NCBI GenBank assembly: GCA_013215775.1
Contig: JABSQO010000003.1
Coordinates: forward strand, 1-64,000
Direction of reading: 5' to 3'
Length of the DNA: 64,000 bases
From: Piscirickettsiaceae bacterium
GTDB taxonomy: Bacteria; Pseudomonadota; Gammaproteobacteria; Nitrosococcales; Methylophagaceae
Shown: piece after piece, positions 3,408-53,953 of the stretch
Position numbering within the stretch: the first letter of the stretch is position 1
Layout of the letters: the number at the start of each line of letters is the position of its first letter
Program-made: the position numbers and the translations under genes
Notes under the pieces: generated by a model
What the model saw: the letters and a program-made list of their open reading frames with translations, nothing else
Database searches by the model: none
What the model was told of the DNA's origin: nothing

Positions 3408-3410
3408 TTC

Positions 3411-3863
3411 TTACTCCGTAGTTATTGAAATATCATGGTCACTATCCATAGCTGCATGCATGGTATGCCATGATAAAGTGGCACATTTAACTCGTGCTGG
3501 AAATTCTTTAACACCACTCAACACTTCTAATTTACCTAAGGTAGTGCTATCTACTTCTTCACCAGTCATCTGTTTATGAACTTGGTCATAAAGTGTTTCG
3601 GCTTCTGCTAATGTTTTACCTTTGAGTGCCTCAGTCATCAGTGATGCCGATGCAACTGAAATGGCACAACCACTCCCTTGAAAACTGACATCTTCTATCA
3701 CGTCATCATCTAACTTAACGAACACAACTAAGGTGTCCCCACATAATGGGTTATTACCATGTGCTAAATGATTTGCATCATCCATTTCACGAAAGTTACG
3801 AGGTTTTTTATTATGGTCCATGATCACTTGCTGGTAGAGATCTCTTAAATCTGCACTACTCAT
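3411..3863 (-). CDS. sufU: SUF system scaffold/sulfur-transfer protein SufU
   Basis: A 150-residue protein of the NifU/IscU-N family. Ligand residues Cys41, Asp43, Cys66 and Cys127 are all present ([22 protein letters not shown]), and the extra segment between Cys66 and Cys127 is typical of SufU rather than IscU. In Bacillus subtilis SufU is a zinc protein that takes sulfur from SufS; the same role is expected here because SufE is not in the operon. The start codon overlaps the sufS stop by 4 nt (ATGA type). A SufU-type operon in a gammaproteobacterium differs from the E. coli sufABCDSE layout. Confidence 0.93.
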
Positions 3864-7148: not shown

Positions 7149-7169
7149 TTATATTCTCTATTTAAGTAT

Positions 7170-8615
7170 TTAACCGACAGAACCTTCTAGGGACAACCCT
7201 AATAAGTTCTGTGCTTCTACCGCAAATTCCATCGGTAATTGACGCATCACTTGCTTACAAAAGCCATTCACAATCATTGATACTGCATCTTCGGTATCTA
7301 AGCCGCGTTGTTTGCAATAAAACAACTGATCTTCACTAATTTTTGATGTCGACGCTTCATGTTCGACTTGGGCTGTCGGATTCTTCACTTCAATATAAGG
7401 GAAGGTATGTGCTGCACACTGATCACCCATTAACAATGAATCACATTCGGTGTAGTTACGGGCATTTTCAGCATTAGGTCCAATCCGTATCAAACCACGG
7501 TACGCATTTTGCGACCGACCTGCTGAGATACCTTTGGATATAACGGTTGAACTGGTATTTTTGCCAAGATGAATCATTTTTGTGCCAGTATCAGCTTGTT
7601 GCATATTATTGGTAACCGCTACCGAATAAAATTCCCCAACCGAGTTATCTCCTCGCAAAATCACGCTTGGATATTTCCAAGTGATTGCCGAACCTGTTTC
7701 AACTTGAGTCCATGAGACTTTTGAGCTAACACCGCGGCATAATGCTCGCTTAGTGACAAAATTGAAAATACCACCTACACCATTTTTATCACCGGGATAC
7801 CAGTTCTGTACGGTTGAATATTTAATCTCAGCACGATCATGCGCTACCAACTCGACCACCGCAGCATGTAATTGATTTTCATCACGCATTGGTGCTGTAC
7901 AACCTTCAAGATAGCTTACATAAGCATCATCATCGGCAATAATAAGTGTCCGCTCAAACTGGCCAGTATTAGCGGCATTGATACGGAAATATGTCGATAA
8001 TTCCATCGGGCATCGTACACCTTTAGGAATATAAACAAATGAACCGTCACTAAACACAGCAGAATTCAATGCAGCATAAAAGTTGTCTTTATAAGGCACT
8101 ACACTGCCTAAGTATTTTTTGATCAATTCTGGATGTTCGTGCACTGCTTTTGAAAATGGCATAAAAATGATGCCATCTTCTGCCAATTTATCTTGAAAAG
8201 TATTCGCAACAGAGACACTATCAAAAACCGCATCAACAGCAACACCTGCAAGACGAGCACGTTCATCTAATGGCACACCGAGTTTTTCATAGGTACGTAA
8301 TAATTCCGGATCAACTTCATCCAAGCTTTTAGGGCCATCTGTCTTTGACTTCGGTGCTGAGTAATAACTAATAGATTGATAGTCAATTTCAGGATAATGA
8401 ACATGCGCCCACTTTGGTGTTTCTAACGTTAGCCAATAACGATAAGCCTGCAAACGCCATTCTAATAAAAACTCCGGCTCACCTTTGATTCGTGAAATAT
8501 CACGAACAGTCTGTTCTGTTAAACCGGGTAAAAAAGTATCCGATTCAATATCAGTGACAAAGCCAGCCTGATAATCACTCTCTAATACGTCATCTATTTG
8601 TTGTTGTTCAGCCAT
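7170..8615 (-). CDS. sufB: Fe-S assembly scaffold subunit SufB
   Basis: Main scaffold subunit on which the nascent cluster forms. The 481-residue product contains the family stretches [26 protein letters not shown], and near the C-terminus [20 protein letters not shown], with the conserved cysteine in QLFYCKQRG and the glutamate/histidine cluster-assembly region. I chose the ATG at 8615 because GGTGAG sits a few bases upstream; a GTG three codons earlier (8624) is possible. The start lies inside the end of the regulator gene (8-nt overlap), so translation is coupled. Confidence 0.96.
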
Positions 8616-9078
8616 GTATCTCACCGTTATGTAATGTTGCTGATGGATAAAAATGTATCGGGCTTACGCCTGATGATTGGGGTACTAACATATCGGATAA
8701 CTTCACCTCATCCAATGCGTGATAAACCGCATTATTGATACGTGTCCAATTCGTTTGCACATCACAATGTGATTCTTGTTCACAGTGGATTTCTTCACTG
8801 ACACATTCTGTCAATGCAATCGGACCTTCCAGTGCAGTAATGATTTCAGCCACTGAAATATTTTTAGGATTACGCGTTAAGTTATATCCACCATGCGCAC
8901 CACGTTCAGATTGCAATAAGTCAGCATGAGATAGTGCTTTTAATACTTTTCTCACTGTTGGCAATGGCATTTGAACCGCATCAGACAAAGTATGTGCACT
9001 ATGTTGCTGATACGTTTTTGATGCAAGATAACTCATCAAAACAATACCGTAATCTGTCAATTTACTCATACGTAACAT
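8608..9078 (-). CDS. sufR: Rrf2-family regulator of the suf operon
   Basis: 156-residue winged-helix repressor of the Rrf2 family, SUF-associated subgroup. The helix-turn-helix lies about residues 28-60 ([19 protein letters not shown]) followed by the wing RGAHGGYNL. Three cysteines (C92, C99, C105) in [10 protein letters not shown]...SHC suit Fe-S cluster ligation, so the protein likely senses cluster status and represses its own operon. The ATG at 9078 is preferred: GGGAGGG lies 6-7 bp upstream. A TTG at 9093 would put that ribosome site inside the gene. The symbol is used for the SUF-operon regulator; it is not the cyanobacterial SufR. Confidence 0.9.
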
Positions 9079-9090
9079 GTCATTCCCTCC

Positions 9091-9117
9091 CAATTGATAC
9101 CATTATAGTACCAATTG
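9091..9117. promoter_or_regulatory. 27-bp near-perfect palindrome, putative suf operator
   Basis: CAATTG stands at both ends (9091-9096 and 9112-9117), and the inner 15 bases are also largely symmetric about 9104. It covers the -10 box, the transcription start and almost reaches the ribosome site of the regulator gene. Binding by the operon's own Rrf2 protein is the obvious inference. It does not resemble the E. coli type 1 IscR motif. Confidence 0.6.
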
Positions 9118-9130
9118 AATTAATAACCAA
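9094..9130 (-). promoter_or_regulatory. suf operon promoter
   Basis: On the minus strand TTGGTT (9125-9130) is followed by a 17-bp spacer and a perfect TATAAT (9102-9107). Transcription would start near 9094-9096, only about 16-18 nt before the ATG at 9078, so the leader is little more than the ribosome site. The overlap with the palindrome suggests repression by occlusion. Confidence 0.7.
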
Positions 9131-9213
9131 GTCTAACACTCGGTTATTTCAACTAATCATCACTAGCAAAATGTGAGAGAATGTGCCGCTGGTGAACTTT
9201 ATCGATATTGTGC

Positions 9214-9231
9214 TTACTAAGAAATTAGTAA
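9214..9231. repeat. Short inverted repeat upstream of the FKBP gene
   Basis: TTACTAA and TTAGTAA surround a 4-base loop, 54 bp before the ATG of the isomerase gene. It could be an operator or a weak leader hairpin. No function can be assigned. Confidence 0.3.
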
Positions 9232-9284
9232 TAAACAAGCGATGATATTTTTAACCTAATACTTACTATATAGAGCATATTTAA

Positions 9285-9974
9285 ATGAAATTAAAAACAC
9301 TCATATTTCTACCTTTTATATTTTTTGGAGCACAAGCAATGGCTGATGATCACGCCGCTACATTAGACACTGAACAACAGCAACTAAGCTATATTTTTGG
9401 TATTCAAGTTGGCCAAAACATGTTGGCTGAAGGCGTAGACCTTGAGATGGAAGCATTTTCTGCCGGTGTTGCAGACATGTTTGCAGGCAAACAACCACAA
9501 TTAGATCAAGCAACAGCCGAAAAAATCATTACAGCATTCCAACAAGGAAAAGCCAAAGAAATGGCTGCCGAAATGAATAAAAAACAAACTCTAGCTCAAA
9601 CTTATATGGACGAAAATGCTAAGAAAGATGGCGTTATCACCACTGATAGTGGCTTGCAATATAGGATCATCACCGCAGGTGATGGGGCGACACCGACTAC
9701 CGAAGATAAAGTTATTGCCCACTATAAAGGTACATTATTAGACGGTACTGTATTTGATAGTTCATATGACCGTGACGAACCCGCAACCTTCCCTGTAACA
9801 GGTGTTATTCAAGGCTGGCAAGAAACATTGCAACTAATGAAAGAAGGCGCTAAATGGGAAATTGTTGTTCCTGCTAACTTGGCTTATGGTCCTCGTGGCG
9901 CGGGTCAAGGTTCTCCAATTGGCCCTAACGAAACATTGATTTTTGAAATTGAGTTAATTGCTATCACTCAATAA
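9285..9974 (+). CDS. Periplasmic FKBP-type peptidyl-prolyl cis-trans isomerase (FkpA/Mip type)
   Basis: Folding helper that isomerises X-Pro bonds in the periplasm. The 229-residue precursor has a cleavable signal peptide (about residues 1-20, ending AQAMA), an N-terminal helical dimerisation domain with LSYIFGIQVGQNM, and a C-terminal FKBP domain from about residue 120 with VIAHYKGTLLDGTVFDSSYDR and the active-site stretch IPANLAYG-like VVPANLAYGPRG ending in LIFEIELI. The Mip/FkpA architecture is complete. It is transcribed away from the suf operon and followed by a long hairpin. The specific symbol (fkpA, fklB or mip) cannot be settled from sequence alone. Confidence 0.93.
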   Translation: MKLKTLIFLPFIFFGAQAMADDHAATLDTEQQQLSYIFGIQVGQNMLAEGVDLEMEAFSAGVADMFAGKQPQLDQATAEKIITAFQQGKAKEMAAEMNKKQTLAQTYMDENAKKDGVITTDSGLQYRIITAGDGATPTTEDKVIAHYKGTLLDGTVFDSSYDRDEPATFPVTGVIQGWQETLQLMKEGAKWEIVVPANLAYGPRGAGQGSPIGPNETLIFEIELIAITQ

Positions 9975-9986
9975 TCAGCTGAATAT

Positions 9987-10013
9987 GAAGTGCCAGAGCA
10001 ATTCTGGCACTTC
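9987..10013 (+). other. 11-bp perfect stem-loop without T-tract between FKBP and DUF1223 genes
   Basis: GAAGTGCCAGA and its exact complement enclose a 5-base loop, 12 bp after the isomerase stop. No T-run follows, so it is not a standard intrinsic terminator. It may protect the 3' end of the isomerase mRNA or slow read-through into the next gene 24 bp further on. Confidence 0.6.
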
Positions 10014-10036
10014 ATCAATGATATGGGAGATGTACG

Positions 10037-10780
10037 ATGAAAAAATCACTCTACACAAGCGCCCTATTATTTTTCTTTATTTCCTCAATCTCATCAGCTC
10101 AAAGTTTTACCAGTGACAGTGAACGTGTCAATATAATTGAACTCTACACCTCCGAAGGATGCAGTAGCTGCCCTCCCGCTGACAAATGGCTCAGAAAATT
10201 AAAACGAGATCCACGTCTTTGGTCTGAATTTATCCCCATGGCTTTCCACGTTGATTATTGGGACTACATTGGCTGGAAAGATCCTTTTGCTAACCCACAA
10301 TTTAGTAATCGACAACGCCAATATTCGATTGAGCATAATCTTTCTAGTGTTTACACGCCTGGCATGTTGTTAAACGGTCGTGAATGGACTTCATGGCGTC
10401 GACAATCCAATTTGAAACTCTCACCGAATGTAATAACAGGCACGTTATCTGTGGACTTAAATGATGGTGTCATTAATGCGAATTATCAGCCAATTAATAA
10501 AAAACAATCTGATCTTATTCTTAATATTGCGGTGCTTGGATTTGACTTAAATGTCGATATTACAGCTGGTGAAAATAAGGGTAAGACATTGACTCATGAC
10601 TTTGTGGTTCTTGGCCTGCATCGGGTTGCTATGAAATTATCAACTGACGGTCAATATACCGTTTCTTCTGCAAAATTACCTAAACTGAACATTCACCCTT
10701 CTACAATAGCCTTATCTGCATGGGTCAATAATGATAGTGATTTGAGCCCGATACAAGCAACAGGTGGTTGGATAAACTAA
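10037..10780 (+). CDS. DUF1223 family thioredoxin-like secreted protein (copy 1)
   Basis: 247-residue protein with an N-terminal signal peptide (about residues 1-21, ending SSAQS). The DUF1223 signature follows: VIELYTSEGCSSCPPADKWL-type motif around residues 35-55, then FHVDYWDYIGWKDPFA and FSNRQRQY. The fold is thioredoxin-like and the CxxC pair (CSSC) could be redox active; the biochemical function of the family is not established. A second family member lies at 18891-19667, with the pair as CGLC. The stop overlaps the convergent ampD stop by 4 nt. It is probably an extracytoplasmic redox protein, which is inference. Confidence 0.88.
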   Translation: MKKSLYTSALLFFFISSISSAQSFTSDSERVNIIELYTSEGCSSCPPADKWLRKLKRDPRLWSEFIPMAFHVDYWDYIGWKDPFANPQFSNRQRQYSIEHNLSSVYTPGMLLNGREWTSWRRQSNLKLSPNVITGTLSVDLNDGVINANYQPINKKQSDLILNIAVLGFDLNVDITAGENKGKTLTHDFVVLGLHRVAMKLSTDGQYTVSSAKLPKLNIHPSTIALSAWVNNDSDLSPIQATGGWIN

Positions 10781-41371: not shown

Positions 41372-42304
41372 TTATAACCTACGACCAAACTGAAACGGTA
41401 AATACACTAACACCAACAATAATAAAGCTCCACTAGCCAACCAGGGAGACCAATCATAGTTCACTATTTGATCTCGTGTTTTAGCAATTTTTTCGATAGT
41501 TTTAACGAGTTTCTTTGATTTAGTCGGGGAAGCAACATAATCAAAGCCAATCATAGCTGCAAGTGATGTTAAATGTGCTTTCTTTTGTGATGACAAGTGT
41601 TCCGTTCTTGCTTTATTGGCATTCTGTTCACTTTGATCGCCACGACTAGACGCATAAACATCTTGATGTAATACATCATTAACTTGCCAAAAGCCGACAT
41701 CATTACCCTCAAGATCATGTTTTGGTATTGGTAATAAATCACTACCCCCTACCCCTACAAAAACACCGGTAATCTCTCCCACTGTTCCTCTAAATTTAGT
41801 ACGTAACGTTTTATGTAATGGTGGCGATTCATGACCATCGGTGATAAAAACGATACTTGGTTTAGGTTCGATCAGTTTCGCTTGTTTAATCGCAGTAAAA
41901 GCAGCTTTGGAGACTTCACTGGAAAGTGCCCATGCCATAGCACCATTTATTTTCTCTATCATTTGTATAAGATCATGATAGTTTCGACAAACCTCTACTG
42001 GATTCATCAATACTAAACTTCTAGATTCACTAAAAGCGGCTAAACCCACATGTGACCCACACGGTAAATCAACCAACGTTTTCTTAGTGAAGTATTTTGC
42101 CCACTCTAGCCGTGTGGCACTATTGCCATCTATTTCAGCATCTTGAACATCCATGCTTTGAGTTATATCCAACACAAACAGAAGATCCATCACTTTCACC
42201 GTGCGATCACTCTTTGGTGTCCATAAGGCCGCCATGACAAGACACAAAACGATCAACATGACCAAAGCTGAAGCCATGATCCTAGTTTGATAGGACAATG
42301 TCAT
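41372..42304 (-). CDS. mxaL: Methanol dehydrogenase maturation protein MxaL (VWA domain)
   Basis: 310-residue membrane-anchored protein: N-terminal helix at about 9-28, a von Willebrand A domain with MIDAS motif DITQSMD (a DxTxS variant) near residue 45 and ITDGHESPP, and a C-terminal helix at about 288-305. In Methylobacterium mxaA, C, K and L are needed to insert calcium into methanol dehydrogenase. It overlaps mxaK by 4 nt. Identification rests on domain order plus the cluster; on its own it would be called a BatB-like VWA protein. Confidence 0.87.
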   Translation of the reverse strand: MTLSYQTRIMASALVMLIVLCLVMAALWTPKSDRTVKVMDLLFVLDITQSMDVQDAEIDGNSATRLEWAKYFTKKTLVDLPCGSHVGLAAFSESRSLVLMNPVEVCRNYHDLIQMIEKINGAMAWALSSEVSKAAFTAIKQAKLIEPKPSIVFITDGHESPPLHKTLRTKFRGTVGEITGVFVGVGGSDLLPIPKHDLEGNDVGFWQVNDVLHQDVYASSRGDQSEQNANKARTEHLSSQKKAHLTSLAAMIGFDYVASPTKSKKLVKTIEKIAKTRDQIVNYDWSPWLASGALLLLVLVYLPFQFGRRL

Positions 42305-42855
42305 GGAAGATCAACTCGAAAACCGACCGATTCAATTGATTTTTCGCTTGAAATGGTTGGTTGATCAAAAACCGCATTATCCTCAGGTTCTTCTGGCACC
42401 ATGCGAAGTGCCAATTCCAAATTAAATCTAATGTCCCACGCGTTAGGTTGAATTAATAAGGCTGTCCGATAATCTTGTTTCGCTAATTCAACCAGAGGAA
42501 TTCGCTTTAAATCACCTACCGTCATTGCTTGTGCTTGCAGCAAATGAATATTCCCACGATTATAATAACTTGATGCTCTGCCATTATCATCAGCCTTAAT
42601 ATCATCTCGTGCTACCAAGCGAGTTAATGTATCCAGCGCTTCTTGTGGTCGTTCATTTAACGCATGATCAAATGCAGCCGAAAAGTATGCTTTGTAATGT
42701 GCTGGAATCTGCTGATCTGCTGTCTTATCACTCTCAATATACTGATTTATTTGAGTGTGTTGCCAAATATTGAAACCGGCATAGGCAGCAGTTAATCCAC
42801 TCAATATCAGTGTTATTACGACCAAGCTATAAGCAAAATGTAACAATTTATTCAT
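42301..42855 (-). CDS. mxaK: Methanol dehydrogenase maturation protein MxaK
   Basis: 184-residue protein with one N-terminal transmembrane helix (about 8-28) and a periplasmic TPR-like helical part (AAFDHALNERPQEALDTLTRL, SSYYNRGNIHLLQA, QDYRTALLIQPNAWDIRFNLELALRMVPEEPE-type repeats, given in part). MxaK is one of the four calcium-insertion factors. It overlaps mxaL by 4 nt and mxaC by 8 nt, confirming a tight operon. Confidence 0.85.
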   Translation of the reverse strand: MNKLLHFAYSLVVITLILSGLTAAYAGFNIWQHTQINQYIESDKTADQQIPAHYKAYFSAAFDHALNERPQEALDTLTRLVARDDIKADDNGRASSYYNRGNIHLLQAQAMTVGDLKRIPLVELAKQDYRTALLIQPNAWDIRFNLELALRMVPEEPEDNAVFDQPTISSEKSIESVGFRVDLP

Positions 42856-43858
42856 GTGCTTTCCTTACTCCCCATGCGGTGTACATTTGTGCCAAGCTTA
42901 ATAATAATATCGTCACTATTGCCAACCAATAAAATGGTTTTTCCTTCAGTTCTCTTGGCAAGGTTTCTTCCACAATTAATGTTTGATATTGCTGACGATC
43001 AATTTCATCCAAGGCATCTGAGAATGTTTGAACTGATTCAACTTCAAAAGCACGATAGGGTAATTCCAAAGACTTGAAATAAGTGTGTAGTTTTCGCTCT
43101 GGCGTATCAGTCCATAGAAAATTATCATTTCCCGTTTCATCTAGGGTCATGCCTTGAGTCGAACGCATATAGATCCAGTAGATACTTAAATTTAGTTCTT
43201 TATACAATGTCGCTATCTTAAGCTTATCTTCTGGTTCTAATTCTTGCCCACCATCAGACACTAATAATACAATTCGTGATCCCCGATACGTTTGACCCTC
43301 GTATAAGCTTGCTGCTTCCAATAAAGCTTTTGACATGTTTGTTTCTGATAAACCTTTCCCTAAAGCACTGGCATTGATAGTCGCAAGGATAGCTTCTTTA
43401 CTATAGGTAAGTGGTAGTAAATCAACGGCATTTGAACTAAAAAATACAAAACCAAAACGGTCATCAGGCCGCTGTTTTACGAATTCTGTTAAATATGATC
43501 GTGCGGTACGGCGTTTACTATCGCTTGTTGCCACACTTTTCATCAGCAACTGGCCTTTAATAGCAAAGGCATCATCCATACTTCGACTACGATCTAGTAA
43601 TAATACGATCTCTGCTCCAGCCGCTATTTTTTCAATCTTTTGTTCTGGTTTATATGGCCCCGCCAATGCCAAAATAAGCGATATGATAGCGAGTGATGCC
43701 AACACCTTAAGTGTCATGCCGATAACGGTGGATAATCGATCAGTAGGCACAAAATCAATCCAAGCAACTGCCTTTTCTTGATTATGATTGAACCACGGTA
43801 ATAGCGCTAAAGGTAATAACAGAAATAATTGCGGTAGTGACCATTGCAGGCCTATCAT
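42848..43858 (-). CDS. mxaC: Methanol dehydrogenase maturation protein MxaC (VWA domain)
   Basis: 336-residue BatA-like protein with hydrophobic helices at about 8-23, 45-65 and 313-330 and a VWA domain holding a full MIDAS motif (LLLDRSRSMD) near residue 87, then FVFFSSNAVDLLPL and VLLVSDGGQE. With MxaL it probably forms a membrane complex that acts with the MxaR ATPase. Overlaps mxaA by 4 nt. Confidence 0.87.
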   Translation of the reverse strand: MIGLQWSLPQLFLLLPLALLPWFNHNQEKAVAWIDFVPTDRLSTVIGMTLKVLASLAIISLILALAGPYKPEQKIEKIAAGAEIVLLLDRSRSMDDAFAIKGQLLMKSVATSDSKRRTARSYLTEFVKQRPDDRFGFVFFSSNAVDLLPLTYSKEAILATINASALGKGLSETNMSKALLEAASLYEGQTYRGSRIVLLVSDGGQELEPEDKLKIATLYKELNLSIYWIYMRSTQGMTLDETGNDNFLWTDTPERKLHTYFKSLELPYRAFEVESVQTFSDALDEIDRQQYQTLIVEETLPRELKEKPFYWLAIVTILLLSLAQMYTAWGVRKAHE

Positions 43859-44700
43859 GCCAGCTTCTCCTTAGACCGACATGACTTGGCTAATTTCAAC
43901 ACTGTCTCTAAATCAGGTACTTCTTCATCTTTTCGATTAAAAAAATGTTTTCCTGAAGCGAGATAAAATTGTGATATGTCTTGTTCTAAGGATGCAAGCC
44001 AAGGTACATCTATCATCAATTGTGACAGTTCACTATGCACCACAATAGTACCGGCTGTTTTGTTAAATGCCGCATGTAAAATTCGTGCAGCTTTATTTTG
44101 TTGTTTAGAGTGTGACCACTTCATTCGTGACAATTCATGCACCGCTTGAGCAAAAGGTCGTCGATTTCTCGGTCTCCAACCGATATGCCAAACCACTAAC
44201 AACACACCAAGAATAGTCGTTAATAAACCTGCTATTTTTAATGTTTCTTCATTTGCGCTTGTAGAAATTAATGTCGGTACATGATCAGCTTTAAACACCA
44301 TATTACTGGCCGAATTTCCAGCTTGTTCTGGTAATAAGGTTCCAATACTAAATGCTGCTTCTGGCACCTTAATCCATTCATCATCTAACTGTCTAAAATG
44401 AAATTCTGGCGTGTAAACTTCAATAGTATTAGTGGGTACATTGACCACTTGATAACTAAGCCACACCTTATTATCCACACTGCTTATGTTTTTTAAATAT
44501 AACCATGTGCCATAACGTCTATCTATTTGCGGTAAGGATGTCAGATCAATATTATCCACTGTGACTGGCAACTCAATTTGTTGTTGTATCTCATCCCCTA
44601 TTAATAAACCCCAAGCACGATCCAAACTTACTTCAGCAATCTGTTCAGCCATTAATGTTGCTGAGACAATACTTAATATTAGACCTATTAAAAATCGCAT
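43855..44700 (-). CDS. mxaA: Methanol dehydrogenase maturation protein MxaA
   Basis: 281-residue protein: signal peptide or anchor (1-18, ending TLMA), a periplasmic beta-rich domain with the family stretch RAWGLLIGDEIQQQIEL, a transmembrane helix at about 158-177, and a cytoplasmic tail starting RPRNRRPFAQAVHELSRM with a conserved HAAFNKTAGTIVV helix. The RPFAQAVHEL motif after the helix is typical for MxaA. mxaA mutants in methylotrophs make calcium-free inactive methanol dehydrogenase. It follows mxaS by 2 bp. Confidence 0.87.
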   Translation of the reverse strand: MRFLIGLILSIVSATLMAEQIAEVSLDRAWGLLIGDEIQQQIELPVTVDNIDLTSLPQIDRRYGTWLYLKNISSVDNKVWLSYQVVNVPTNTIEVYTPEFHFRQLDDEWIKVPEAAFSIGTLLPEQAGNSASNMVFKADHVPTLISTSANEETLKIAGLLTTILGVLLVVWHIGWRPRNRRPFAQAVHELSRMKWSHSKQQNKAARILHAAFNKTAGTIVVHSELSQLMIDVPWLASLEQDISQFYLASGKHFFNRKDEEVPDLETVLKLAKSCRSKEKLA

Positions 44701-44702
44701 GA

Positions 44703-45587
44703 TTACGCTCGCTTCAATCCTGAAAAATAATGTGTTAATTGTTCACCTGTGACATCACCATCTACAAATAAAGGTTTTACCCGATGATGCATAAAACAGG
44801 CAGCTAATTGCTCAAAATGATTGTTCATTGCTTGCTGCCAATTCTTTTTCATACTTGGTCTCATCCAAACACTTCGATTTTGGCCTGTTTCAGAATCTCG
44901 CATTTCTGTCCAACCAGCATGAGAAGGAAAATGGTCAACATCGTGATGCTGCCAAACAATGGGGACAACCGTGTAATTAGACAATTGTCGCAATGTTTTT
45001 TCGACCAAACTAATATCAACACAAAAATCTGATGCCAAAAACACCATGGCATGAGAGCTAGTGATCACATTGGCGGCATCAATTAATCCGTCTACACCTG
45101 GGTTCGTTGCTGCATCTGCATTCCTAATCATATCTGCAGCTAATAAAGGCATACTTCGCTGTGTAGTGGGCATAATAGATATATCTTGACGCCAAGTTGA
45201 GTCAAAACCTGCCATCGCAAAACGATCACCCAAACTAATCGCCGAATGAGCAATCATTTGAGCCAAGTTTGCTAACTGGCTATGATTCACTCTCGATATC
45301 GACATTGATTTTGACATGTCAGCCAGTAACCATAAGGTGATAGATGATCGTTGTTGATAACGTCTCACCAGCCAACGATTTCTATCTGTCACTGTGCCGC
45401 TGGATAAATTATTCCGTAAACTTGCTCGAATATCTAATCGTCTAGGATCAGGGTAATCAAATAGATCGGCAAAGCCCGCAAAACGGTCACCCGCACCTAA
45501 TGATGAACCAGCATGTGCTCCGGGAACATGGCCAAACACATTATTAGGAAAACGATAGTTAAACTCATCTTGTGTGTGAATACTCAT
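44703..45587 (-). CDS. mxaS: MxaS, DUF58 protein of the MoxR-associated type
   Basis: 294-residue cytoplasmic protein of the DUF58 family, a VWA-related fold that works with MoxR ATPases. The N-terminal HVPGAHAGSSLGAGDRFAGF and PRRLDIRASLR are family features; WLLADMSKSMSIS near residue 84 is the VWA-like motif. It lies 24 bp after mxaR and 2 bp before mxaA. The role in methanol dehydrogenase maturation is by genetic association in other methylotrophs. Confidence 0.88.
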   Translation of the reverse strand: MSIHTQDEFNYRFPNNVFGHVPGAHAGSSLGAGDRFAGFADLFDYPDPRRLDIRASLRNNLSSGTVTDRNRWLVRRYQQRSSITLWLLADMSKSMSISRVNHSQLANLAQMIAHSAISLGDRFAMAGFDSTWRQDISIMPTTQRSMPLLAADMIRNADAATNPGVDGLIDAANVITSSHAMVFLASDFCVDISLVEKTLRQLSNYTVVPIVWQHHDVDHFPSHAGWTEMRDSETGQNRSVWMRPSMKKNWQQAMNNHFEQLAACFMHHRVKPLFVDGDVTGEQLTHYFSGLKRA

Positions 45588-45611: not shown

Positions 45612-46646
45612 CTACGGTGTTGAGATATTATTGCGTAATGCCTGCACAAATAGTGGCATTATTTGTTCACGTCGACTTTCATACACTGGTGATAGAAATA
45701 CTCGATGATTCAGTGATGGCAATAAAACCGCGTGAATATCATCTGGCAATACATGATCTCGGCCTGCTAACCATGCTGCAACTCTCGCAGCTCGAACCAT
45801 CGCTGACATACCTCGCACACTCGCACCAGCGACTACTAGATCCTCGATATAGATGTCAGGGATTTCAATGCCTGCCTTCTGAGGTTCCCATGTTGCATCC
45901 CACAACCTCACCACATAATTTTCAATTTCTTCTGATACAAAAATTGCATTTTGAATAGTATTATCAAGGGCATTAAGATCTTTATAATCTAATAGCGGTT
46001 CAGAAATATTTGCCAATAATCTATCGACATTATGAAAAATAGGATCGAAAATTAATTGACGTCTAATCGTTGAATCTGAAGGTCGATCAATACTGATTTC
46101 AAATAAGAATCGATCTCGCGCCGCAGCACTTAATTCGAAGGTTTCCTCTTTCTCAACCGCATTACGGTCAGCGAATACCACCATATGAGGAAATTGAAAT
46201 TCTCGCCCAAAGGCATCAGCACTATATTCAGACATTGCTCTTAATAATAAAGACTGAACTTGTGGGCGAGCACGATTAATTTCATTAAAGAAAAATACCG
46301 CAGTTTCTTCGCCATGGGCAATAAGAGGACCAGGATCAATAACGGGTCTACCGTCACCATCGACCCATGCACTGTATAGCAAATCATTAGGCATTAAATC
46401 AACACTGCCCTCGATACGACCAAAGGCACCGCCTAATGCTTTAGAAAATGCACGTAATAAAGTTGTTTTACCAACACCCACCCCACCTTCTAATAACACG
46501 TGACCACGTGCATGTAGTGCAATTAATATTAAACGAATGGCTTGTTCTTGACCGACCACCACCTGATTAACCACTTTTTCTAATGCTAAGGCATGTTCAC
46601 GTGATGTTTGAAGCTGAGTTTCTGACATTACATCTTTCCTATTCAT
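45612..46646 (-). CDS. mxaR: MoxR-type AAA+ ATPase MxaR
   Basis: 344-residue ATPase, the founding type of the MoxR family. Walker A is LLEGGVGVGKTTLLRAF (GGVGVGKT), Walker B AVFFFNEINRARPQVQSLLLRAM (in part), sensor 1 VVFADRN in place of the usual ATQNP, and the C-terminal lid has SPVYESRREQIMPLFV. It probably powers remodelling of the MxaC/MxaL/MxaA complex or of methanol dehydrogenase. It follows the four-helix membrane gene by 24 bp. Confidence 0.9.
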   Translation of the reverse strand: MNRKDVMSETQLQTSREHALALEKVVNQVVVGQEQAIRLILIALHARGHVLLEGGVGVGKTTLLRAFSKALGGAFGRIEGSVDLMPNDLLYSAWVDGDGRPVIDPGPLIAHGEETAVFFFNEINRARPQVQSLLLRAMSEYSADAFGREFQFPHMVVFADRNAVEKEETFELSAAARDRFLFEISIDRPSDSTIRRQLIFDPIFHNVDRLLANISEPLLDYKDLNALDNTIQNAIFVSEEIENYVVRLWDATWEPQKAGIEIPDIYIEDLVVAGASVRGMSAMVRAARVAAWLAGRDHVLPDDIHAVLLPSLNHRVFLSPVYESRREQIMPLFVQALRNNISTP

Positions 46647-46670: not shown

Positions 46671-47069
46671 TTATGTATTTAAATAGTACTGAACGAAGGT
46701 ATAAGCGAGCCAGACAAAACCGACAGTTGTGATTACAAAGCTAATCGCTGAATAAACTTTCCAGACCATTTTGTCCCAAAAATTCTCATCTAAAGAGGCA
46801 ACAACAAAAATAGTGGGATTAGTGAAACCACCAATAGCCACACACCAGCAAGCAATGATCGGTAAATCAACACCGCTGGCACCGATCGCATAAAAAGCAG
46901 CACCAAAACCACCCATCAAGGCATAATCAACATGTGCCCGAATAAACGTAGCGTAATCAAATTTTCCATCTAAACCTGGGATAGGGAACCAGCGTGCAAA
47001 CGTCATTGTCCACGCCCCTATAATGAGTGCCATCATGCATGCTGCCGCACCTACTAATAATATTTCCAT
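46671..47069 (-). CDS. Four-helix membrane protein at the head of the mxa operon, styrene oxide isomerase-like
   Basis: 132-residue protein with four hydrophobic helices (about 3-24, 47-65, 70-90 and 104-128). The ATG at 47069 has GAGGAGAG 4-5 bp upstream; an earlier in-frame start at 47111 adds 14 poor residues. From memory, two motifs parallel styrene oxide isomerase (StyC): RAHVDYALMGG (His46) at the start of helix 2, matching the isomerase RAHVGPALNG that holds the heme-ligand His, and GGFTNPTIFVV matching GWSNVGFYFF. The substrate-binding Asn of StyC would be Met here. It is the first gene before mxaR on the same strand. Function unknown; alignment is needed. Confidence 0.75.
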   Translation of the reverse strand: MEILLVGAAACMMALIIGAWTMTFARWFPIPGLDGKFDYATFIRAHVDYALMGGFGAAFYAIGASGVDLPIIACWCVAIGGFTNPTIFVVASLDENFWDKMVWKVYSAISFVITTVGFVWLAYTFVQYYLNT

Positions 47070-47117: not shown

Positions 47118-47227
47118 ATCGGTAGCAATGTTAACCTAAATCACGCCTAACAATCTCGGGCAAATATCCCTATGATGTCATATTATCTTTAAGGATTTTT
47201 CTTTAGGCCATAAACTGTAAGCCATTC

Positions 47228-48574
47228 ATGAATTTAAAAATACAACTTCTTTATCGTATCTTGTTTATTGCTGTTTTGTGTTTAATGGCTAGTGCTTTTT
47301 ATGTGCTCCATCAAACAGATCAACAAGCAATATCTGAAGCCAATTTAACCGCTAACCGTATTGAAAATCAGCTCGATAAACAACTTCTACAAATGTTCAC
47401 TCGATATGATTATTCAAATACATTTCCAAATACTAAGTTATGGCCAGATACTAATGGTTTAGCTGGTTCCTGTATTCAATTCTTATCCCGTGATCAAAAT
47501 CGTCACCGGAATCTATGTAATCAAGCTATTGAAACAGAACGAAATTGGCCTATATGGTTTGGTTCTTTATATCAGCACCTATTTTCTCCCTATTTTGAGG
47601 TAAAAAAGGATATTTCATTTAATGCCATCACTTATGGCTCAGTAGTAATCACCCTCAATGGACATATTGAAACTGCACGAGCATGGAACAATCTACGCGC
47701 TGTCATCGACGTGTTATTTATAAGTATTCTGGCGCTGTGTCTTTTGGTCTATGTCACTATCAATAGATTATTAAAGCCAGCTCAAATCATCGTGTCTGGG
47801 CTAGAAAAAATGAGCACTGGCAAACTAGAAACCCGACTGCCTTCATTTGATATTAATGAATGGAAACGCACCAGTGATGCCATAAACCAATTAGCTTCTA
47901 GCCAAGAGAGAAGTATTGGAGATAATAAAAAACTTGCTTGGAAATTAATTAATATCCAAGAAGATGAACACCGCTATATTGCGAGAGAGTTACACGATGA
48001 ATTTGGCCAATGTTTAGCAGGTATAAATGCCGTAACAACTTCAATCAATCAATCCGCAAAAATTCACTACCCAGATATTTTGGATGAAACAGATAGAATC
48101 CGTCACATTACTAACCATATGATGGATGTACTTCGTAATCTGTTAACTAGATTACGACCGGCTGACGTCGATGAGATTGGCTTAGCCCTAAGCCTTAAAA
48201 AGCTCATTGATAGTTGGAATAAACGATCTCTTAATCAAACGTTTTATTCAGTGATTATTGATGATTGCGACAATCTACCCGATCCCTTGCCCGTCAATAT
48301 TTATCGTATTGTGCAAGAGTGTCTGACCAATATATCAAAACATGCTCAAGCATCGGTTGCGACGGTGATATTGTCAAAGCAGAATCAAAATATTTCATTA
48401 TCCATTACCGATGATGGCATAGCAGAAGTCGATTCCTTTGATAATACGGTTGGAGTAGGTTTATTAGGTATTAGAGAACGAGTTCTAGCATTAGGTGGCG
48501 AGTTAGAACTAATATCATCTAAAAATAAAGGATTAATAATTAACATTAATATACCAGCACAACATGATGAATAA
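47228..48574 (+). CDS. Sensor histidine kinase divergent from the mxa cluster (MxaY-like)
   Basis: 448-residue kinase: transmembrane helices at about 10-27 and 157-177, a periplasmic domain with a cysteine pair (C82, C97) that could form a disulfide, HAMP-like RLLKPAQIIVSGLEKMSTGKL, HisKA_3 box with H256 in ARELHDEFGQCL, and N-box YRIVQECLTNISKHA. The G1 box reads DDGIAEV instead of DDGxGF, losing a glycine of the ATP lid, while GVGLLGIRERV is intact. MoxY/MxaY kinases flank mxa genes in other methylotrophs; position suggests the same role. Paralog of the kinase at 15443. It overlaps its regulator by 11 nt. Confidence 0.85.
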   Translation: MNLKIQLLYRILFIAVLCLMASAFYVLHQTDQQAISEANLTANRIENQLDKQLLQMFTRYDYSNTFPNTKLWPDTNGLAGSCIQFLSRDQNRHRNLCNQAIETERNWPIWFGSLYQHLFSPYFEVKKDISFNAITYGSVVITLNGHIETARAWNNLRAVIDVLFISILALCLLVYVTINRLLKPAQIIVSGLEKMSTGKLETRLPSFDINEWKRTSDAINQLASSQERSIGDNKKLAWKLINIQEDEHRYIARELHDEFGQCLAGINAVTTSINQSAKIHYPDILDETDRIRHITNHMMDVLRNLLTRLRPADVDEIGLALSLKKLIDSWNKRSLNQTFYSVIIDDCDNLPDPLPVNIYRIVQECLTNISKHAQASVATVILSKQNQNISLSITDDGIAEVDSFDNTVGVGLLGIRERVLALGGELELISSKNKGLIININIPAQHDE

Positions 48575-49238
48575 TAAAAATATAACTATTAAGATACTAC
48601 TGGTTGATGACCATGCTATTGTGCGTGAAGGTTATCGCTCCCTGTTACACAAACAAGATGGATTGGAAGTCATTGCTGAAGCTAAAGATGGTGAGGAAGC
48701 TTACATCGCGTATAAAAAATATCAACCTGGTTTAGTTATTATGGATATTTCTTTGCCTAAACAAAGTGGTATACAAACCATCGCCCGAATTAAAAAACTA
48801 GACCCTTCTGCCAAAATCCTCGCTTTTAGCATGCATCAAAACCCTAGTTTCGCTATTCAAGCAACACAAGCGGGAGCCTTAGGATACATCACCAAAAGTA
48901 GTGATCCTGAAGTATTGATACGAGGGATCTATGATGTCTATCAAGGGAAATATTCAATCAGTGCTGATATTGCACAAGCATTAGCCGCAGAAAGGTTAGC
49001 TGACACTGAAACAACATTAGATGAGCTAACTGTTCGAGAGTTTGAAATACTTCGTATGCTCGTCGAAGCTAAATCTACACAAGATATAGCTGACACTCTC
49101 AATATTAGCCCTAAAACTGTTTCCAATAGTCACTATATTATTAAACGAAAATTAAACGTCAGCAGTGATATTGAATTAACTCATTTGGCGATAAAGATGA
49201 ATGTGATTAATTTATTAGAAATTACCGGGCCTAATTAA
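48564..49238 (+). CDS. LuxR/NarL-family response regulator divergent from the mxa cluster (MxaX-like)
   Basis: 224-residue regulator with receiver domain (D15/D16, phospho-acceptor D61 in LVIMDISLPKQSG, Lys in YITKSSD) and LuxR-type DNA-binding domain (LTVREFEILRMLVEAKSTQDIADTL, given in part, and KTVSNSHYIIKRKL). The start ATGATG overlaps the kinase end. It is closely similar to the regulator at 16783 in both domains. Control of the divergent mxa operon or of a distant mxaF is the likely job, by analogy with MoxYX. Confidence 0.88.
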   Translation: MMNNKNITIKILLVDDHAIVREGYRSLLHKQDGLEVIAEAKDGEEAYIAYKKYQPGLVIMDISLPKQSGIQTIARIKKLDPSAKILAFSMHQNPSFAIQATQAGALGYITKSSDPEVLIRGIYDVYQGKYSISADIAQALAAERLADTETTLDELTVREFEILRMLVEAKSTQDIADTLNISPKTVSNSHYIIKRKLNVSSDIELTHLAIKMNVINLLEITGPN

Positions 49239-49242
49239 ATTT

Positions 49243-50538
49243 TTAATCCTTTGATAAACGTTCAATTATCCTGCCTATTGCTATTGTCAGTGTCGTTAAG
49301 TCAGACCGATTAATAATATACGGTGGCATAATATAAATTAGATTTCTGAAAGGCCTTATCCAAACACCTTGATCGACAATGAATTTTGGTAACCAATCCA
49401 TCTGATCATCTAAAGGTTGATGTAATTCAACCACGCCTATTGCACCTTTCACGCGAACATCTTTAACGGAATCCAGAGATTGATAAGGCATCAATTCAGT
49501 TGTTAATTGTTGCTCAATAATCTTCACCTGCTGTTGCCAGTTCGACTCTAACAACACATCAATACTTGCACAGGCGACTCGGCATGCTAATGGATTCGCC
49601 ATAAATGTCGGGCCATGCATTAACACTCCACTACCATCAACAGCCATACCCAAGGCTATTTTGTCAGTACATAAAGTTGCTGCTAAGGTCATATAGCCAC
49701 CCGTTAAGGCTTTACCCACACATAAAACATCTGGGCATATACTGGCTTGTTCATAGGCAAACATCGTACCCGTTCGACCGAAACCAGTCGCAATTTCATC
49801 CAATATCAACAAAACATCGAATTGATCACATAGAGCACGAACTTGTCTTAAATACTCGGGGCAATAAAAACGCATACCGCCAGCACCTTGTACCAACGGT
49901 TCAAGTATCACGGCTGCTAATTCATGATGATGCTCATTTATTAATTGAGTAAATTCGGCAATATCATGATCTTGCCAATCTTCATCATTGATACATGTTG
50001 GTGCCGGTGCAAATAGATGTTTTGGCAATACCTGTTCAAACATACTATGCATACCATTAAGGGGATCGCATACAGCCATTGCACCAAAAGTATCACCATG
50101 ATAACCGTTGCGAATGGTGAGTAAACGTTGTTTGTTTGTCTTGCCTTGAGCGAACCAGTATTGAATTGCCATCTTGATAGCAACCTCAACCGCGATGGAA
50201 CCAGAATCAGAAAAGAAGACTTTTTGTAACGGCTCCGCTGTAAGAGCAAGCAATTTTTCAGCAAGTTCTATAGCGGGTTGATGAGTCAGCCCTCCAAACA
50301 TCACGTGAGACATCTGATCAATTTGATCTTTGGCTGCTTGATTTAAACGTGGATGATTATAACCATGAATTGTCGACCACCACGATGACATGCCATCAAT
50401 GATTTCACGACCATCTGCTAGTGTTAAGTAGGTACCATTGGCAGATACAACTTCATGAATGCAGGAAGGATGAATAACGCTACTGTATGGATGCCAGACA
50501 TGCTTAGCATCAAATTTTAAATTTTCGCTTTGTTCCAT
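49243..50538 (-). CDS. bioA: Adenosylmethionine-8-amino-7-oxononanoate aminotransferase
   Basis: PLP enzyme that makes 7,8-diaminopelargonic acid with SAM as amino donor in biotin synthesis. The 431-residue protein has HVWHPYSS at the N-terminus, GMSSWWSTIHGYNHP, FFSDSGSIAVEVAIKMA, YHGDTFGAM, ILDEIATGFGRTGTMFAYE and the PLP lysine in CVGKALTGGYMTLAAT. It lies 34 bp after iscA. Other bio genes are elsewhere. The stop is 4 bp from the convergent response-regulator stop. Confidence 0.96.
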   Translation of the reverse strand: MEQSENLKFDAKHVWHPYSSVIHPSCIHEVVSANGTYLTLADGREIIDGMSSWWSTIHGYNHPRLNQAAKDQIDQMSHVMFGGLTHQPAIELAEKLLALTAEPLQKVFFSDSGSIAVEVAIKMAIQYWFAQGKTNKQRLLTIRNGYHGDTFGAMAVCDPLNGMHSMFEQVLPKHLFAPAPTCINDEDWQDHDIAEFTQLINEHHHELAAVILEPLVQGAGGMRFYCPEYLRQVRALCDQFDVLLILDEIATGFGRTGTMFAYEQASICPDVLCVGKALTGGYMTLAATLCTDKIALGMAVDGSGVLMHGPTFMANPLACRVACASIDVLLESNWQQQVKIIEQQLTTELMPYQSLDSVKDVRVKGAIGVVELHQPLDDQMDWLPKFIVDQGVWIRPFRNLIYIMPPYIINRSDLTTLTIAIGRIIERLSKD

Positions 50539-50572
50539 AGCGTGATCATATCAGGCTATGCTGTGAATGAGA

Positions 50573-50899
50573 TTATTTTGTTACGCTAAAACTCTCGCCA
50601 CAACCACATGCTGACACCACATTAGGATTATTAAACTTGAAGCTTTGATTTAAACCTTGTTTAACGAAATCCAATTCCATTTCATCCAACATTGGCATAC
50701 TGTTTTTATTAATAACAACTTTGACACCATCTTGTTCAATAACAATATCATCCTCTGCCACGACCTCAGCAAAGTCCAAAGCATAGCTATAACCAGAACA
50801 TCCGCTCTCAGTCACACCAATACGAAGTCCAATACCAGAACCTCGCTTGGCGACCATATCACGCACTCTATTCACTGCTGATTCTGTTAATTTAATCAT
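50573..50899 (-). CDS. iscA: A-type Fe-S carrier IscA
   Basis: 108-residue carrier that delivers clusters to apoproteins. The three ligand cysteines are present: GCSGYSYALDF and ACGCGESFSV. Sequence is of the IscA/ErpA type with GIGLRIGVTESGCSGYSY. It lies 13 bp after iscR, but iscS, iscU, hscB, hscA and fdx do not follow; bioA comes next. So it likely works with the suf scaffold. Confidence 0.9.
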   Translation of the reverse strand: MIKLTESAVNRVRDMVAKRGSGIGLRIGVTESGCSGYSYALDFAEVVAEDDIVIEQDGVKVVINKNSMPMLDEMELDFVKQGLNQSFKFNNPNVVSACGCGESFSVTK

Positions 50900-50912
50900 T
50901 ATTGTTACCTAA

Positions 50913-51359
50913 CTATTGAACATTAAAACTGATGATTTTGTCATCTGCTTTACTAGCATCATAAGACTGTACCACTTGTTCTAAGGTGATTCCTGACAAA
51001 TAGACTCGAATTTGATCGCTCAAACTTTCCCACAAATGGTGGCTGAGACACTGTTCACCATCATGGCAATTAGCTTTACCTTCACAAGCAGTGTTATCCA
51101 TCTTTTCATCCACCGCTAAGATAACATCTAAAATGGTGATCTTATCGGCTGATCGACTTAACGTATAACCACCACCTGGCCCTCTTGTACTACTGACCAA
51201 GTTTTGTTTACGTAAACGTGAGAATAACTGTTCTAAATACGATAATGAGATACCTTGGCGCGCCGATATATCAGCAAGGGTAATGGTACCTACCTCATAA
51301 TTTAAACTCAGGTCTAGCATTGCCGTCACCGCGTAGCGACCTTTTGTTGTTAATCTCAT
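50913..51359 (-). CDS. iscR: Fe-S cluster regulator IscR
   Basis: 148-residue Rrf2-family regulator. The winged helix is residues 1-70 ([47 protein letters not shown]). The [2Fe-2S] ligands C92, C98, C104 and H107 sit exactly as in E. coli IscR ([19 protein letters not shown]). With cluster bound it represses its own promoter through type 1 sites; such a site lies at 51396-51420. Confidence 0.95.
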
Positions 51360-51395
51360 ACAAATACCTTAAAAACTCTATGGGAATATTTTCAC

Positions 51396-51420
51396 ATACC
51401 CGAGTATTTTAGTCAACTTT
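51396..51420 (-). promoter_or_regulatory. Type 1 IscR site and iscR promoter, overlapping the cysE stop codon
   Basis: On the minus strand, the part TTGACTAAAATACTCGGGTA plus the next T fits the E. coli type 1 motif (YYGACTRWWWYAGTCRRSTAT) at 20 of 21 positions. TTGACT also serves as -35, with GAAAAT 17 bp on as -10. The cysE stop TAA is inside the site. It implies iscR-iscA can be transcribed apart from trmJ-cysE and be autorepressed. Confidence 0.8.
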
Positions 51421-52197
51421 ATCAGAAGACTCTTGTTGCTGTAGATCACACTGTTTAAGCTCTGGCATTTCAACATCCGCAAGTTGACCGCCTAACTGGT
51501 GAATCGTATCAGTCATCATATCCAGTCGTTTGTCTAATACTTGAATATGTTCAATCAAACCATGAATGGCCGTCGCAACCGGATCCAGCGTTTCACTTGA
51601 TGTGCCGTAAGCATCAAATCCAACTGCTTCGGCTAATTTTTGCTGCTGTTTTTTATCTTCTGTTAAATCTGTTCTCACAATACGACCAGGCACACCTATT
51701 ACTGTGTCACCGGCCACCACATCTTTAACGACAACCGCGTTCGAACCAATACGCGCACCCTCATGCAGACAAATAGGCCCCAACACTTTGGCGCCGGCAC
51801 CCACCACCACATTATTCGCTAATGTCGGATGTCGCTTACCTTCTTTCCATGATGTTCCACCCAATGTTACGCCATGATAAAGCGTGCAATCATCACCAAT
51901 TTCAGCCGTTTCACCAATCACTACACCCATACCATGATCAATAAAGAATCGACGGCCAATCTTAACTGCAGGATGAATTTCAATACCCGTTAACCAACGG
52001 CTAATCGTCGATGAGAAACGAGCTAACCATTTTAAGTTATGTGACCATAACCAGTGGCTCAATCGGTGCCATTGAATTGCTTGAACACCAGGAGAAGTAG
52101 TGATAATTTCAAAAACATTACGCGCAGCAGGATCACGGTCAAACACACACAGTACATCTTCTTTCATTTGTTGCCATAAAGTGACTTTCTCGGCCAT
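51409..52197 (-). CDS. cysE: Serine O-acetyltransferase
   Basis: Makes O-acetylserine for cysteine synthesis. The 262-residue protein has the N-terminal helical domain ([19 protein letters not shown]) and the left-handed beta-helix with hexapeptide repeats: [46 protein letters not shown] (in part), [25 protein letters not shown]. The C-terminal 60 residues extend beyond the short SAT form and are acidic and glutamine-rich. It overlaps trmJ by 1 nt. cysM is at 60.4 kb. Confidence 0.95.
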
Positions 52198-52925
52198 TAC
52201 TCTCCCCTTTTCGTTTCAGCTGCACGCAAAATGCCATGCAAAATTTGTAATTCATTTCTATCTAAGTCTGCACGATTAAATAATCGCCGTAACCGCCGCA
52301 TTAAATTACGAGGTTTTTCTGGATCTAAAAAGCCAATTGTAACTAATGATTGTTCAAAGTGACTATAAAGATGCTCTAAATCACCAGCATCTATTGCCTC
52401 ACGCTCCTCCCCTATCCGGCCAACTTCAATAGTTGGATCAAAGCTCATCTTCAGTTCATAAGCTAAGACTTGCACAGCAGCCGCTAAGTTCAATGAACTG
52501 TAAGCTGAATTCGCTGGAATATTAATAAGATGCTGACAACGGTCTAATTCATCATTCGATAGGCCTGAGTGTTCACGACCAAATACTATCGCAATCTTAG
52601 TTTCATTGGCAGATTGCTGAATTCGGTCTACCGCTTCTCGCGGATTGACGATCGGCACGGGTAAATGACGCAACCGTGCACTCATGCCATATACCTGCTG
52701 GCAACCCGCTAACGCCGAATCTAAACTGTCATGTACGACAGCTGCTGCCAACACATCATCAGCTCCTGAGGCCCGAGCAGTTGCTTCTGCACTTGGGTAT
52801 ATTTTAGGTTCAACCAAATGTAAGTTAGATAAGCCCATTGTTTTCATTGCGCGCGCAGCCGCACCAATATTACCAGGATGAGTCGTACCCACTAGCACAA
52901 AGCGTATGTTATCTAAGGTATTCAT
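52197..52925 (-). CDS. trmJ: tRNA (cytidine/uridine-2'-O-)-methyltransferase TrmJ
   Basis: SPOUT-class enzyme that 2'-O-methylates position 32 of tRNAs. The 242-residue product has [26 protein letters not shown] (in part), [18 protein letters not shown] and the trefoil-knot stretch [23 protein letters not shown]. trmJ-cysE-iscR is a recurring gammaproteobacterial order. The start overlaps the queA stop by 4 nt. Confidence 0.94.
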
Positions 52926-53953
52926 GAATCTTTTCTCGTTAGGAACATTGCATCACCATAGCTAAAAAAGCGATATTTTTGTTTTATGGCATGCTGGTAT
53001 GCCGTCATTATATTACTCTTACCCGCAAATGCTGATACCAACATGAGTAACGTTGATTCTGATAGATGAAAATTGGTTATCATCGCATCGACACTTTTGA
53101 ATTGATAACCCGGATAGATGAAAATATCTGTTTCACCTTCATAAGGTTCAATTTTCCCTGATCGTGATGCACTTTCCAATGCGCGAACACTGGTAGTACC
53201 CACAGCAATCACTCGACCACCACGTTGTTGCGTTGCTATAACTTGCTGGCAAACTGTCTCTGATACTTCTAACCATTCTGAATGCATTTGATGCATTTTA
53301 ATATCATCCACACGAACTGGCTGAAAAGTACCAGCACCAACATGTAAGGTCACCTGTGCTGTTTCAATACCAAGTCCATTAATAACATCTAACATCGCTT
53401 GGTCGAAGTGTAACCCTGCTGTTGGTGCCGCTACTGCACCAATATGCTGCGCATAAATGGTTTGATAGCGCTCCAAATCATCTTGCGCCACCTCACGTTC
53501 AATATAAGGAGGTAAAGGCAATCGGCCAACAGATTCTAAAACATCAATAACGCTCATCTCAGTATGAAAATAGAGTTCAAACAAAGAATCTTGTCGTCCT
53601 AATACCTCTATGTCTATCGTACCTTCCAATAATAAGTGACGACCTATTTTAGGAGACTTACTACTGCGAACATGCGCCAACACAGTATGATCATTCAGTA
53701 CTCTTTCAACCAGTACCTCTACCTTACCACCGCTATCTTTTTGGCCTAATAATCGTGCAGGAATGACCTTAGTATTATTAAATACCAACAAATCATCAGG
53801 TCGTAATAATTCTGGAAAATCAATGAATTGCCTATCATTCAGCACACCACTATTACCCTCAAGGGATAACAATCTGCTAGCGGTACGTTCTTTTGATGGA
53901 AATTGAGCGATTAACTCTGTGGGTAATTCAAATTGGAAATCTGTAAGTTTCAT
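52922..53953 (-). CDS. queA: S-adenosylmethionine:tRNA ribosyltransferase-isomerase
   Basis: Forms epoxyqueuosine on tRNA by transferring ribosyl from SAM. The 343-residue protein has [76 protein letters not shown] (in part) and [19 protein letters not shown]. It heads the unit queA-trmJ-cysE with overlapping stops and starts. No strong Shine-Dalgarno precedes the ATG. Confidence 0.96.

Follow-up and report, generated by a model that had tools for sequence, protein, structure and literature searches.

A conserved four-helix membrane protein of methylotrophs probably adds a new branch to the styrene oxide isomerase superfamily

We describe a gene, here called M, that belongs to a real and conserved branch of proteins, is found in methylotrophs and is without a name in the libraries searched. 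Profile comparisons place M in the styrene oxide isomerase (SOI) superfamily as a new branch, linked to the rest through a sister family, D. Judged by alignment, it keeps the histidine that ligates heme in the isomerase StyC, while most of the substrate network seems to have been lost. The gene lies in the window, by which we mean the whole stretch of 64,000 nucleotides that was analysed, and its surroundings are listed in Table 1. The original prediction for this region, of an SOI-like heme protein at the head of the mxa operon, was right on the SOI relation and wrong on the operon.

Table 1. Features of the M locus, in coordinates of the window.
Feature	Position	Strand	Basis
M: putative SOI-superfamily four-helix membrane protein, 132 aa	46671..47069	minus	ORF, homologs, predicted fold, profile match
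MoxR-type AAA+ ATPase, 344 aa, 24 bp downstream of M	45612..46646	minus	Pfam AAA_3 + AAA_lid_2
DUF58 protein, MxaS-like position	44703..45587	minus	Pfam DUF58
281-aa protein, MxaA-like position	43855..44700	minus	weak DUF4381 match under Pfam cut-off
vWA protein, BatA-like, MxaC-like position	42848..43858	minus	Pfam VWA_2; NCBIfam BatA under cut-off
TPR-like protein, MxaK-like position	42301..42855	minus	matches under cut-off
Second vWA protein, MxaL-like position	41372..42304	minus	Pfam VWA_2
Histidine kinase (HisKA_3), divergent from M	47228..48574	plus	Pfam/NCBIfam
NarL/LuxR-type response regulator	48564..49238	plus	Pfam/NCBIfam
Palindrome GGGATATTTGCCC, 101 bp upstream of M start	47158..47170	minus	pattern search, shuffles

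The frame of M opens with ATG and holds both motifs that had been named for it, RAHVDYALMGG and GGFTNPTIFVV. The moxR gene does follow in the same direction at the claimed distance of 24 bp. MoxR AAA+ and vWA proteins are encoded together downstream of M (Pfam AAA_3, DUF58, VWA_2), and the six downstream genes stand in the order of mxaRSACKL. On the other side, 158 bp separate M from the divergent kinase gene. Beyond the response regulator (49243-53953), the window contains a class-III aminotransferase gene, followed by iron-sulfur, cysteine and RNA modification genes that were named by eye.

A scan of genome contigs by short exact peptides returned at least 66 loci homologous to M, with 54-95% identity; M is therefore a real gene and not a chance reading frame. 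At least 80 stretches matched the peptide pattern and further M loci may exist; the scan detects solely loci matching these peptides, and absence elsewhere carries no meaning. The locus titles name Methylophaga, Methylophilus, Methylotenera, Methylovorus, Methylomonas and other Methylococcales, Methylocystis, Methylosinus and Hyphomicrobium. The remaining titles are those of MAGs named at higher rank only, and overall the hosts are mostly methylotrophs. Methylophaga titles among the closest loci suggest that the window's family is Methylophagaceae. When the window sequence was aligned with 64 loci (leaving out L065 and L066, which have broken frames), 40 columns were invariant besides the start, which had been set to Met by script. 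These include R44 A45 H46 V47 D48, A50 L51 M52, G80 G81, N84 P85 and F88, as well as F82, which is Met in the 66th sequence (L079). H46, D48, M52, N84 and F88 are invariant in all 66, and H46 is the sole invariant histidine of M. Within the window's family, 24 of 57 genomes contain an intact M, and five more (G426, G431 with L140, G444, G449 and G450) have it only as fragments or broken copies. In two loci from Methylophaga-type genomes, L138 (G450, 6834-7302) and L066, a frameshift splits M at about residue 63.

AlphaFold2, supplied with 33 aligned sequences, predicts the four helices originally proposed for M (residues 2-27, 39-64, 71-93 and 101-131), with a mean pLDDT of 93.5. When the model was compared with Foldseek's 634 chains in a second look by VIA, it superposed on StyC (8pnu) with Z 11.1 and 2.8 A over 126 of 132 residues, a helix arrangement compatible with StyC, although, as VIA cautions, helical bundles with Z below about 13 may share no more than a common arrangement. 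Four-helix segments of heme-copper oxidases reached Z 12.5 in the same comparison, above StyC. A relation to MAPEG proteins, with Z up to 8.9, was rejected because the profile scores were at the null level. Foldseek itself, run on the PDB with the M model, gave nothing under E 0.001, and StyC was not among the best 50 matches listed. Searches of Pfam and NCBIfam with M, and of PDB sequences with M or its profile, gave no relevant match. Likewise, at E up to 1, M did not match the NCBIfam model for StyC, NF045734, on which StyC itself reaches 251.7 bits against a cut-off of 150. The name 'mxaP' was also considered as a label for M and dropped, as the open-licence literature gives unrelated papers only.

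The relation to SOI emerged from profile comparisons. Family D, with the motif QAHxDFLxM ... FTNSxLF, was found, among the samples searched, in genomes of the window's family and in two further genomes of Gammaproteobacteria; both the D and the StyC-like sets were gathered by profile from samples of 369, 57, 398 and 337 genomes. The M family matched 13 D and in-between sequences with 98.9% probability (E 1e-17, profile-profile). A joint profile of 66 M, 16 D and one in-between sequence was then matched by hhalign to 38 StyC-like rows (36 genes, two present twice) with a score of 48.3 (93%, E 3.5e-7), in an alignment that spans 151 columns and has the axial histidine in register. The highest control scores were 20.8 among 60 column shuffles, 14.2 among 48 reversed-rotated profiles and, for MAPEG, 15.1. 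Forward rotations of the StyC-like profile reached 39.8, and were not counted as nulls because they retain most of the order and are expected to score highly. Against the StyC profile, M alone fell short of significance, with E between 0.15 and 0.006 depending on the setting and an alignment partly out of register, and the match of D alone was weak (E 7e-4, 26%); the SOI assignment is therefore based on the joint profile together with the compatible fold. Thus, the parallel with StyC that had been proposed stood at the level of the superfamily, by a controlled profile match and a compatible fold, and did not extend to a match with the StyC equivalog.

Like StyC (NF045734; PDB 8pnu/8pnv, 30tw), M has four compatibly arranged helices, with RAH in TM2 and the equivalent of Asn99 in TM3. 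All 120 rows (66 M, 16 D and 38 StyC-like) have His at the position of StyC His58, so that H46 of all 66 M sequences is in the register claimed for the RAH histidine. The place of Asn99 is also Asn throughout M and D (66/66 and 16/16). In contrast, the place of Asn64 is Met, that of Asp95 is Gly and that of Tyr103 is Phe in every one of these sequences; for M the residues concerned are M52, G80 and F88 (66/66), and the suspected replacement of the StyC asparagine by Met was thereby borne out. StyC Thr20, which positions His58, aligns with Leu15 of M. M further differs from StyC in lacking an NF045734 match and in its MoxR/vWA and methylotroph context. According to excerpts from the structural work on SOI (PMC11374702), the N99A and Y103A mutants are inactive, N64A and D95A are impaired, and the ligand, bound on the opposite face of the heme, is contacted by Asn64 from the adjacent subunit. 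With Met, Gly and Phe fixed at the places of Asn64, Asp95 and Tyr103, SOI chemistry appears unlikely in M. A few StyC-like proteins have His (L225, L226) or Gln (L227, L236, L237) at the place of Asn64; with the Met of M and D, four residues (Asn, Gln, His and Met) thus occur at this place across the superfamily.

These observations are consistent with a model to which we give an even chance: M would form a heme-b trimer with His46/Met52 ligation, on which the MoxR and vWA proteins act and which a two-component system controls via the palindrome. In this model M would be an inner-membrane protein, most likely a trimer holding heme b between its subunits, with His46 in TM2 as one axial ligand. 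Given an invariant Met52 at the place of Asn64, and only Asn99 kept of the four other network residues compared, a six-coordinate His/Met heme is predicted, one that would be redox-active or ligand-sensing and not a Lewis-acid isomerase. By analogy with StyC, this ligation is the simplest prediction, as the Met would lie near the sixth coordination site. The MoxR ATPase and the vWA proteins might then serve in cofactor loading or remodelling of M. NorQ and NorD, a cofactor-insertion pair of the MoxR and vWA types, are understood to act on nitric oxide reductase in this way. As in such pairs, the MoxR and vWA genes of the window accompany a gene for a membrane protein that carries a heme-type motif; unlike in those pairs, the candidate client would be one four-helix protein, linked to them by gene neighbourhood. 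Finally, control of M by the histidine kinase and response regulator would operate via the palindrome, which lies about 100 bp upstream.

The intergenic region between M and the kinase gene contains GGGAWAWTTGCCC. The palindrome in it has the form GGG-N7-CCC, and its spacing from M hardly varies between loci from two proteobacterial classes. Its pattern was derived from 12 rows of the window's family and sought in 66 upstream regions (the window and 65 loci; L027 was too short). With up to 2 mismatches it was present in 23 of these, all 79-123 bp before M, as compared with 1.9% of shuffled regions. Eleven of the 23 lie outside the defining 12, namely five close relatives, the alphaproteobacterial L036, L039, L049 and L054, and the Methylophaga loci L053 and L059, in which M has neither cluster nor kinase in reach. 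Most upstream regions from Methylophilaceae and Methylococcales, and that of Hyphomicrobium L035, lack it (3 or more mismatches). The window genome has no other exact site, and 10 more sites with one mismatch, versus 5 for the reversed control; near xoxF we found chance-level matches only. The palindrome is a probable operator, presumably the site of the response regulator, and together with the divergent kinase/regulator pair it suggests a dedicated control of M.

A homologous kinase was present in the flank of 19 of the 66 M loci, of which four are alphaproteobacterial: L035 (Hyphomicrobium), L036 and L039 (Methylocystis) and L049 (Hyphomicrobiales), with a kinase identity of about 30%. In another locus, L139 (G426), where M is a fragment, a homologous kinase/regulator pair (6726-8736) adjoins a gene (8928-10610) that reads by eye as xoxF-like. 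Both the sharing of a flank by kinase and M over two classes and the arrangement at L139 would also fit a membrane co-sensor of the histidine kinase, with a heme or redox input and no enzyme activity. A possible analogy is offered by Methylomicrobium buryatense, in which the kinase MxaY controls the lanthanide switch, as stated in an excerpt of PMC5018670. However, 47 of the 66 M loci are without such a kinase in the fetched flank, and we regard a co-sensor as unlikely.

We also considered the neighbours of M and D in relatives. Of the 66 M loci, 21 have one or more genes of the MoxR cluster near M, and 19 have four or more of the six; the other 45 are without any cluster gene in the fetched flank, and in 40 both cluster and kinase are missing from the fetched flanks. 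Five Methylophilaceae loci (L021, L024, L033, L047 and L052) have a full-looking cluster 0.2-2 kb from M, with mxaI not in reach, and L013 from the same group has two weak cluster matches near M. An XoxF-like dehydrogenase gene, recognised by eye, lies in the flank of two of the 66 loci (L053 and L058). A homolog of the window vWA protein at 42848..43858 follows D in four of 15 D loci (L125, L126, L132 and L137; 45-58% identity), and was not found in the other 11 fetched from the family. By eye, D is divergent from an AraC-like regulator gene in eight loci (L124-L126, L128, L132, L133, L135 and L137). Given that M is linked with MoxR/vWA genes, and D in some loci with a vWA gene, M could also be read as a membrane anchor or scaffold of these proteins that has inherited the fold and the histidine but has lost the heme. 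We consider this unlikely: the invariance of H46, D48, M52, N84 and F88 in 66 sequences meets no obvious need of a scaffold, and the 45 loci without a cluster gene in the fetched flank also argue against it.

Alternatively, M might keep an SOI-like Lewis-acid isomerase reaction and apply it to another, smaller epoxide or to a C1-related substrate. The heme-ligand histidine and Asn99 are indeed kept in all M and D rows, and the regulators beside M (the kinase pair) and D (AraC-like, by eye) resemble catabolic control. Nevertheless, three of the four SOI residues that are sensitive to mutation, according to the same excerpts (PMC11374702), are replaced in 82 of 82 M and D rows, which makes such a reaction improbable. 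Nor did an inspection by eye of eight further M loci reveal any epoxide pathway genes; sty genes (styAB/styD) were likewise absent from those loci and from the window.

The order and the domain types of the six genes downstream of M are those of the MxaRSACKL accessory genes. Unlike those genes, however, the cluster occurs in genomes without mxaI, and its MoxR differs from the mxaI-linked one. The window genome (99.8% complete) lacks mxaI and encodes two full-length PQQ dehydrogenases, both on other contigs, which read by eye as one XoxF-like and one divergent enzyme, neither of them reading as MxaF. In the 19 of 57 family genomes that have mxaI, the MoxR near it on the same contig is 44-52% identical to the window MoxR (44-48% in 18 of the 19), and the window-type MoxR (at least 76% identity) is a separate gene in 44 of the 57. 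The window MoxR is a paralog of the mxaI-linked one. Intact M and mxaI were unassociated in the 57 genomes (both 8, M only 16, mxaI only 11, neither 22; Fisher p = 1), as they were in the 36 better genomes (7, 9, 10 and 10 in the same order; p = 0.75). Intact M did go with the window-type MoxR, the corresponding counts being both 23, M only 1, MoxR only 21 and neither 12 (p = 0.004, kinship ignored), and 16, 0, 14 and 6 in the better genomes (p = 0.024, kinship ignored). Additionally, a tblastn search of the fetched flanks of the 66 M loci, which extend up to 8 kb a side and are often shorter, gave no mxaI with four MxaI sequences as queries. For the mxaR-cluster genes taken together we found no paper in the open-licence literature, so that absence from print stays unproven.

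The claim that M heads an mxa operon is therefore not supported, the genome being without mxaI and the adjacent MoxR a paralog of the mxaI-linked one; the expected co-occurrence with mxa genes failed as well, intact M being found with mxaI in 8 genomes and without it in 16. The originally suggested role, that of a heme protein for the maturation of the MxaFI methanol dehydrogenase, draws on the mxaRSACKL-like gene order downstream and on the mostly methylotrophic homologs, but is very improbable in view of the missing mxaI, the lack of a dehydrogenase that reads by eye as MxaF, the separate MoxR paralog, the lack of association in 57 genomes and the failure to find mxaI in the flanks of 66 loci.

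A more distant relation, to subunit I of the heme-copper oxidases, was suggested by the merged superfamily profile. Against helices IX-XII of 44 oxidase sequences it scored 33.3 (E 1.1e-3; controls up to 20.7), with the heme-ligand histidine in register with the first His of AHFHYVL, the His of the oxidase high-spin heme; the oxidase profile that reached this E of about 1e-3 merged aa3, cbb3 and class B and left out NOR. On single oxidase arcs the merged profile scored 30.2 with arc 3 (E 4.4e-4), 17.3 with arc 1 and 11.5 with arc 2, on a scale where oxidase arc 2 versus oxidase arc 3 scores 23.3. The arc 3 signal came from the StyC-like rows (27.3), and M and D alone gave 14.6. Among single classes only aa3 (25.9) exceeded the controls, with cbb3 and NOR at 15.8 each and class B at 14.5. 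The M family by itself gave E 0.48, 0.25, 0.47 and 0.0065 against the four classes, the last being class B (5.8% probability), and that match falls in a stretch seemingly after helix X. Only L110 (29.3) stood out among 48 single oxidase-type proteins, the next scoring 22.0; the best of 55 E. coli proteins reached 21.3, and E. coli CyoB, as a single sequence, ranked 45 of 142.

The M model resembles subunit I in that it superposes on helices IX-XII, and differs from it in having four helices and one invariant histidine, where subunit I has twelve helices in one chain and CuB ligands. Separately, we noted a StyC-like gene (L150, G392; 3227-3823, minus strand) about 3.5 kb from COX1, in a genome with three StyC-like genes. 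We found no paper in the open-licence literature that links SOI to the heme-copper oxidase or cytochrome c oxidase fold, which leaves absence from print unproven; the authors of the SOI structure state, in the excerpted text (PMC11374702), that a DALI search gave no substantial structural match. On one reading of the oxidase comparison, three four-helix proteins, with hemes at their interfaces and a histidine in TM2, would correspond to the twelve helices of subunit I in three arcs, with the high-spin heme histidine in helix X. The SOI superfamily might then be a living single-arc relative of subunit I, and M with its MoxR/vWA proteins might mirror nitric oxide reductase with NorQ/NorD. Because the single-class, single-sequence and M plus D comparisons were mostly negative, we retain this as a suggestive but doubtful reading.

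The model of M as a heme-b trimer under two-component control, with MoxR and vWA proteins acting on it, offers a small and testable protein with a candidate regulator, a candidate operator and candidate chaperone-type partners. A methylotroph-wide branch with an invariant Met in place of the Asn that contacts the substrate in SOI would point to a heme fold serving a purpose beyond epoxide isomerisation. If true, the link to the heme-copper oxidases would also bear on the origin of subunit I from a four-helix unit.
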